In this document: piece after piece, positions 26,092-26,689 of the stretch
Layout: the number at the start of each line of letters is the position of its first letter
Position numbering within the stretch: the first letter of the stretch is position 1
DNA from: Curvibacter sp. GWA2_64_110
Lineage (GTDB): Bacteria; Pseudomonadota; Gammaproteobacteria; Burkholderiales; Burkholderiaceae_C
Direction of reading: 5' to 3'
DNA length: 64,000 nt
NCBI GenBank assembly: GCA_001797315.1
Contig: MGPC01000013.1
Location: 62,001-126,000 of the forward strand
Made by a program: the position numbers and the translations under genes
The notes under the pieces: generated by a model
Told to the model about the DNA's origin: nothing
Seen by the model: only the letters and a program-made list of their open reading frames with translations
Database searches by the model: none

Positions 26092-26125
26092 GGCCACAGG
26101 CCTTTTCCTTGACAGGCCTGTGGCC
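26092..26125. promoter_or_regulatory. 11-base inverted repeat in phoD/small-protein intergenic region
   Basis: GGCCACAGGCC (26092-26102) and GGCCTGTGGCC (26115-26125) are exact reverse complements separated by 12 bases. The right arm fills the first part of the spacer of the promoter at 26109-26137. This placement is typical of a repressor operator, although a structured DNA or RNA role is also possible. Confidence 0.6.
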
Positions 26126-26144
26126 TGACCGTACAGTGTTTCAG
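26109..26144 (+). promoter_or_regulatory. Sigma-70-type promoter for the small-protein pair
   Basis: TTGACA at 26109-26114 is a perfect -35 hexamer. TACAGT at 26132-26137 follows after exactly 17 bases as the -10. Transcription would begin near 26144, about 30 bases before the first small gene. An inverted repeat overlaps the -35/-10 interval. Confidence 0.65.
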
Positions 26145-26173
26145 CAAGATTAACGCCCGGCACGGAACCCACA

Positions 26174-26380
26174 ATGGAAATCTCCTCCACCACCATGATC
26201 GCCCGAGAAGCCATGAAGACTCAGGCTACCGAAAAAAAGCCGGAAGAGGACATGGCGGTCAAGCTGCAGCAGCAAAAGCTCAATGCCGAAGCGCAGATGA
26301 TGAACAGGGAAGAAAATCCCAAACCGGTGGTGAATACACAGGGACAGACCACCGGCCGCATCGTCAACACCACGGCGTAA
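26174..26380 (+). CDS. Small protein 1 with NTxGxTTGR tail, unknown function
   Basis: This 68-residue protein has no signal peptide. The middle (MAVKLQQQKLNAEAQMM) is a charged, probably helical stretch and the C-terminus is KPVVNTQGQTTGRIVNTTA. The next gene, 13 bases downstream, ends in KPMLNTRGETTGRLLSTQA, identical at 11 of 19 positions, so the two are paralogous at least in this tail. The N-terminal MEISS and the NxxGxxxNTxA-like end recall YjfB-type putative motility proteins, but that match is weak. A well-formed promoter precedes it. I do not assign a function. Confidence 0.72.
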   Translation: MEISSTTMIAREAMKTQATEKKPEEDMAVKLQQQKLNAEAQMMNREENPKPVVNTQGQTTGRIVNTTA

Positions 26381-26393
26381 ATCGGGATTTACC

Positions 26394-26666
26394 ATGCTCG
26401 GCCTCGCACCCTCCTCCAGCGGCCTGCCCAGCCAGCAGTTGAGCCTGTACCAGGCCAAGCTGCAGCAGGCACGGCGCGAAGCGGCGCAGGCACAGACCCG
26501 GGTGCAATCACTGGAAGTGCAAACCGAAACCGCACGCCAGGAAGCGGCCCAGGCGCAGAGCAAGGTCCGCAGTCTCGAAGGCAAGGGATCGCCACGCAGC
26601 GACGCCAAGCCCATGCTGAACACCCGGGGCGAAACCACCGGCCGTCTGCTCAGCACGCAGGCCTGA
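26394..26666 (+). CDS. Small protein 2, coiled coil with NTxGxTTGR tail
   Basis: The 90-residue product has a helical coiled-coil body from about residue 18 to 62. Two similar segments, KLQQARREAAQAQTRVQSLE and ETARQEAAQAQSKVRSLE, form an internal repeat with REAAQAQ/QEAAQAQ cores. The C-terminal 19 residues match those of small protein 1. No signal peptide or membrane segment is visible, so it is probably cytoplasmic. It lies 13 bases after small protein 1, almost certainly in the same transcript, and is convergent with rlmB. The function is unknown. A shared-tail partner for the first protein is a reasonable guess. Confidence 0.7.
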   Translation: MLGLAPSSSGLPSQQLSLYQAKLQQARREAAQAQTRVQSLEVQTETARQEAAQAQSKVRSLEGKGSPRSDAKPMLNTRGETTGRLLSTQA

Positions 26667-26689
26667 CGCGCCGGCACCTTTTGTTAGTT

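Follow-up and report, generated by a model that had tools for sequence, protein, structure and literature searches.

What do two adjacent genes encode when their small products have unlike bodies and end in closely similar peptides? The question is raised by genes A and B, which lie in tandem in a 64,000-nucleotide stretch of DNA from Curvibacter sp. GWA2_64_110 (contig MGPC01000013.1, positions 62,001 to 126,000 of the forward strand; hereafter the window), and for which a sequence-only reading had proposed a shared C-terminal tail. The best explanation of the results, which we put at about an even chance, is that A and B belong to an unnamed Burkholderiales family of small proteins that works with the flagellum, the tail being a docking or assembly peptide.

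A conserved terminal tail on two kinds of body

The translations bear out the unlike bodies claimed for the adjacent 68- and 90-residue proteins, and a recount from the lysine onward confirms that their tails are identical at 11 of 19 positions. The tail follows a consensus of about 18 residues at the extreme C terminus, P-x-V-N-T-x-G-Q-x-x-G-x-x-[IL]-N-x-x-A, in which N, G and G are invariant across 28 aligned tails and the terminal position is almost without exception Ala. Searches of 300 Burkholderiales genomes gave matches in 31 with a 20-column tail profile (A1; expectation value (E) ≤0.1) and in 33 with a broader, unanchored 22-column profile (A2; E≤0.02), or in 29 once four weak matches were left out, of which one (G228; E 0.0025, internal to its protein) was judged on reading and three (G069, G190 and G269) were dropped on E-value and frame. 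All 38 listed matches with E<1e-3 are terminal, 36 lying directly at the stop codon and two ending one residue earlier. Because of this position, and because 33 of the 300 genomes were matched, the tail resemblance is, on the profile evidence, beyond chance.

Outside Burkholderiales, no convincing tail match came from 369 genomes sampled across the class; the only hits in that sample were the window's own genome and one weak match (E 0.0077) in a 374-residue frame. The sequence-only reading had held that occurrence of the tail widely in unrelated contexts would refute it, and half of this was found: within one order the tail lies in many unrelated genomic places, but in the loci read it is carried by small proteins of two shapes, i.e. 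those with a hydrophilic body (as in A) and those with a coiled coil (as in B). The N terminus of the family is short, conserved and rich in Ser and Thr (M-x-[IV]-x-S-V-S-S). Elsewhere in the window's own genome, a different contig encodes a third tail protein of more divergent sequence, found by profile A1 and not by A2 (L182 16676-17620, G000:C40; ending IILNTMGQPTGRLISFIV). It has relatives in G002 and G004, and a chemoreceptor-like match lies some 2 kb from its gene, where the contig ends.

That B is a coiled coil with an internal repeat, as had been proposed, agrees with its structure model, a single helix over residues 13-64 (predicted local distance difference test score, pLDDT, 81-86 by block across residues 21-60), and with a repeat of period 21 residues seen by eye, Ala26-Glu41 and Ala47-Glu62 being identical at 12 of 16 positions. 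The tail of A is weakly modelled as a hairpin; its bridges fall at residues 52-53 and 59-60, and the block covering residues 51-60 has a pLDDT of 75.

The reading frames of both genes look coding, since the ratio of nonsynonymous to synonymous substitution rates (dN/dS) between the window and its nearest relative comes to 0.14 in A and 0.37 in B. Eight further gene pairs, two of them again involving the window, range from 0.03 to 0.75, and nine of the ten compared pairs lie below 0.4. A and B are thus very likely genuine genes, with frames that appear to be under coding selection. Nor is their pairing peculiar to the window: a B-like coiled-coil gene directly follows the A gene in at least 18 of 23 A-matching loci, with gaps of about 3 to 85 bases, and tandem pairs occur in several genera, the order being reversed in G305 (L083). 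Within genomes, the tails of 14 A/B pairs share on average 9.93 of 18 residues versus 9.15 expected from shuffling, a value reached in 431 of 10000 shuffles; co-evolution of the two tails is weak and is therefore not used as evidence.

The nearest relatives of the two genes differ. In A the window is closest to L029 (84% identity, against 67% in B) and in B to L031 (83% identity, against 49% in A), and the synonymous divergence from L031 is 0.26 for B and 1.70 for A; these unlike relatives suggest that one gene of the pair may have been exchanged. Among named records, A comes closest to one from a Hylemonella metagenome-assembled genome (84% identity); records of Rhodoferax and Curvibacter are next. 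A mobile-element origin found no support in the searches made, A having no plasmid or phage match at E≤1 and one relative likewise none among plasmids.

Relation to known protein families

The view that the pair belongs to no named family stands: neither A nor B has a match reaching a curated cut-off in Pfam, NCBIfam or PHROGs, no family in the PDB fits (the search of solved structures gave two matches only, at E 0.17), and for 22 A-type relatives the same three collections gave nothing above the level of chance, the best E being 0.0032. The peptide NTQGQTTGR found no mention in the literature searched, and the titles and opening parts of abstracts on YjfB, FlxA and small flagellar proteins held nothing recognised as the tail family. 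Judged by sequence comparison, A and B are members of an unnamed small-protein family so far seen only in Burkholderiales.

The faint lead to YjfB (PF14070) proved a good one. Like the tail family, YjfB is a small, flagellum-linked protein, and both ends of the family profile align with the matching YjfB ends: the first 14 columns with the YjfB N terminus (hhalign, P 3.7e-4) and the nine columns that close the tail profile (14-22 on 58-66) with its C terminus (P 0.005), each scoring above all 150 of 150 column shuffles in which the first and last columns were kept fixed. The tail family shares the YjfB start M-[DA]-[VI]-x-x-[IV] and the C-terminal pattern G-x-x-[IV]-[ND]-x-x-A, which in YjfB reads G-x-x-[IV]-[ND]-[TV]-x-A. 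However, YjfB has a central helix with V-L-K-K-A, absent from the tail-family alignments (A3 and A4), and usually the ending P-P-H-L-G-Q-N-I, which the tail family also lacks; the latter is set apart by N-T-x-G-Q-x-x-G, and PF14070 (cut-off 27 bits) is not matched by A, B, the 22 relatives or anything in the window's own genome. YjfB is described as an uncharacterized small protein associated with a sigma-28 sub-module and other flagellar genes (PMC11607428), and yjfB is listed as hypothetical (PMC4326333). A few of 17 YjfB genes scanned here have sigma-28-like sites. Mutual exclusion of YjfB and tail genes, considered when the first 60 genomes showed no overlap, did not hold up in the full 300: among FlhA-positive genomes the two occur independently, YjfB being present in 13 of 27 with the tail and 80 of 181 without (p 0.84).

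The resemblance to Escherichia coli FlxA (PF14282), which starts MSVTI and ends NTAGTIDIYV, is limited to the layout and the last few residues. The window's B does not match PF14282, and homology of B with FlxA was rejected, the B profile aligning with E. coli FlxA without significance (P 0.33). FlxA is described as FliA-dependent, with no evident part in making the flagellum or in motility (PMC4183435). A tandem pair of the A-B layout in G052 (L186 1245-1454 and 1462-1830) has a short A-like gene first and, as second member, a sub-cut-off match to FlxA; both of its proteins end VGS[IV]INTSA, a tail variant that profile A2 did not find.

The body of B has only sub-cut-off matches of coiled-coil type. 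With FliJ, a flagellar export protein, B shares the nature of a small coiled-coil protein, and it matches the FliJ models weakly (E 0.0017 for TIGR02473, E 0.0014 for PF02050), falling short of their curated cut-offs (18.8 against 50.45 bits and 19.3 against 28.4 bits, respectively). As other coiled-coil families score as high or higher, the match most likely reflects composition.

Association with the flagellum

Genomes with a tail match are enriched in the flagellar export gene product FlhA, which occurs in 31 of 33 such genomes versus 177 of 267 others (Fisher p 0.0005), or, with the four weak matches left out, in 27 of 29 versus 181 of 271 (p 0.0025), although these genome counts are uncorrected for relatedness. 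YjfB matches, for comparison, occur only in FlhA-positive genomes (93 of 93 in this sample). Of the two strict-set tail genomes without FlhA, G311 has a flagellin-type gene adjoining its tail gene and only G177 has neither. Within the window's genus, a flagellin-type (PF00669) match is present in all 17 genomes with A (one of which has a weak, frame-broken A match) versus five of eight without. Three A-positive genomes of the genus have no FlhA match (G004, G005 and G010); since all three have flagellin-type genes, we infer that the gap reflects assembly loss.

Promoters give a second link. Sites for the flagellar sigma factor sigma-28 (FliA) were sought upstream of genes with the consensus TAAAGTTT-N11-GCCGATAA, at least 12 of 16 positions and CCGAT in the -10 part being required. 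They precede six of 29 distinct order-wide tail genes (12-16 of 16 positions) versus one of 342 control open reading frames (ORFs), the single control positive being the same site seen via an overlapping ORF. One of the six sites, at locus L066, is perfect; the six genes come from two families (f25 and f36). Sigma-54 sites were considered and set aside; the pattern was matched once, ahead of the gene at L058.

The third link is the neighbourhood, surveyed at 57 loci (the window and 56 fetched ones, some of which share a genome). Four of them have flagellar genes of the structural, export or sigma kind: in genus g45, three of four loci have a flagellin gene adjoining the tail gene, and at one locus flhA, flhB and fliA lie near the tail gene (G071). 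Six other loci have chemoreceptor (tar) matches and one a cheA match; cheY- and cheB-type matches were regarded as unspecific. A further match, to fliI in L172, was left unjudged. At the three g45 loci (L164 7080-8302, L166 7740-8992 and L167 7699-8920) the tail gene is of the coiled-coil kind and converges on a short flagellin gene (285 amino acids); in G061 (L168), the fourth genome of g45, the tail gene stands without a flagellin gene. At L041 a chemoreceptor match lies 4 kb from the tail locus.

The earlier suggestion of a tie to flagella is thus upheld by promoters of sigma-28 type, co-occurrence and neighbouring flagellin genes in other lineages and goes unsupported by the window's own promoter and neighbours. 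The best sigma-28 candidate upstream of window A (L001) reaches 8 of 16 positions, and sigma-28 control of the window pair was rejected on this ground. Because the pair has neither such a site nor a flagellar neighbour, a flagellar role for it is inferred from the family.

Proposed role and alternative explanations

If the tail were a peptide for docking on, or assembly with, a shared partner, it would be expected to stay constant at the terminus of unlike bodies. We propose that the tail may dock on, or assemble with, one common flagellar partner, which could be the export gate, basal body or filament, or else a late-stage regulator. The body of A would then be a spacer and the coiled coil of B would form oligomers; that coiled-coil and hydrophilic carriers are encoded together suggests that a multimer and a second protein are brought to the same place, such that B multimers and A might meet on the same partner. 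The Ser/Thr-rich N terminus may act as an export signal, this being the least certain step. A docking, secretion or self-assembly role had been suggested for the tail from the start; its C-terminal conservation would fit such a role without proving it.

Several observations weigh against a flagellar docking family. The window pair has a promoter of sigma-70 rather than sigma-28 type; 23 of the 29 order-wide tail genes have no sigma-28 site, and among the rows listed for loci L001-L051 none reaches 12 of 16. No flagellar structural genes were found near the window pair or at the other 23 A-matching loci. Within the window's genus FlhA is not associated with A, being present in 14 of 17 genomes with A and six of eight without, and flagellated relatives without A exist, so the flagellum does not need A. 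G177, which has the tail with neither an FlhA nor a PF00669 match, is a 92% complete assembly with 7% contamination. The tail is strongly kept on A and far less so on B, where it is often reduced to G-x-h-h-[ND]-x-x-A, and one B pair has a dN/dS as high as 0.75. Finally, the structure models are poor (predicted template modelling scores of 0.24 for A and 0.32 for B), with A modelled not as plain disorder but as two uncertain helices of low confidence.

A wider version of the docking proposal, which we regard as possible but rather doubtful, is a common terminal code, in which YjfB, the tail family and FlxA-like proteins would share the end G-x-x-[IV]-[ND]-[VIT]-x-[AV] and a similar start. Unrelated bodies would have been swapped between these ends, which might route many small proteins to one flagellar site; the idea is prompted by the G052 pair, in which an A-like protein and a weak FlxA match have the same end.

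It is unlikely, though the best of the alternatives, that A and B are substrates of flagellar type III export, with an N-terminal signal, a body suited to passage and a tail that binds hook or filament outside, the proteins being secreted or filament-associated. No hydrophobic signal peptide is visible by eye in either sequence, and the short conserved start M-x-[IV]-x-S-V, which we take to resemble known export signals, would suit this account, as would the sigma-28 class of some lineages and the flagellin neighbour at most g45 loci; the N-terminal pattern is, however, too short for a sequence test.

The sigma-70-like promoter of the window and many relatives, together with the hydrophilic bodies, would be explained if A and B were hydrophilin-like stress or abundance proteins made from a housekeeping promoter, their co-occurrence with flagella following from a free-living lifestyle or shared ancestry. 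That only some flagellated genomes have them, and that they show no association with FlhA within the genus, fits this too. We nevertheless consider it improbable, given the sigma-28 promoters and flagellin neighbours elsewhere and a C-terminally fixed tail, which would not be expected of a bulk protectant.

A tail at the extreme C terminus with a small non-polar last residue, nearly always Ala, could also be a degradation or protease-recognition signal, with the proteins as short-lived regulators. Conservation reaches about 18 residues back (P, N, G and G), more than C-terminal degradation tags need, and this account seems quite improbable. Coincidental likeness of two adjacent low-complexity genes, to which the sub-cut-off matches of the B body might point, has a negligible chance, being refuted by the order-wide profile matches and opposed by the tandem pairs in several genera and the coding-frame selection.

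Were the tail to bind a fixed partner, the identity of that partner would show where in the flagellar system a whole set of small Burkholderiales proteins belongs. The functions of yjfB, flxA and similar small flagellum-linked genes are not known; to these the tail family adds a group defined by its tail and often encoded by two genes as a unit. Its candidate binding peptide is so short that it could serve directly as bait.

Features and setting of the window pair

The coordinates of the pair are collected in Table 1. The two ORFs are separated by 13 bases and lie on the same strand, flanked by what we take to be a phoD-like gene in the opposite direction and an rlmB-like gene converging on the pair. 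TTGACA- or TTGAAA-like elements occur at a similar position upstream of A in many related loci.

Table 1. Features of genes A and B (positions in the window)
Feature	Position	Strand	Description
Promoter-like site, sigma-70 type	26109..26137	+	TTGACA-N17-TACAGT upstream of A; 1 found, shuffles mean 0.1
Protein A (ORF A), 68 residues	26174..26380	+	MEISS short N terminus, variable hydrophilic body, conserved tail
Tail of A	26324..26377	+	PVVNTQGQTTGRIVNTTA
Protein B (ORF B), 90 residues	26394..26666	+	Coiled coil, then tail
Modelled helix of B, residues 13-64	26430..26585	+	Structure model
B repeat (period 21 residues), copy 1, residues 26-41	26469..26516	+	By-eye reading of translation
B repeat (period 21 residues), copy 2, residues 47-62	26532..26579	+	By-eye reading of translation
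Tail of B	26610..26663	+	PMLNTRGETTGRLLSTQA; tail-profile E 1.3e-4

An open frame 175 codons long (26150-26677, minus strand) lies antisense to A and B.
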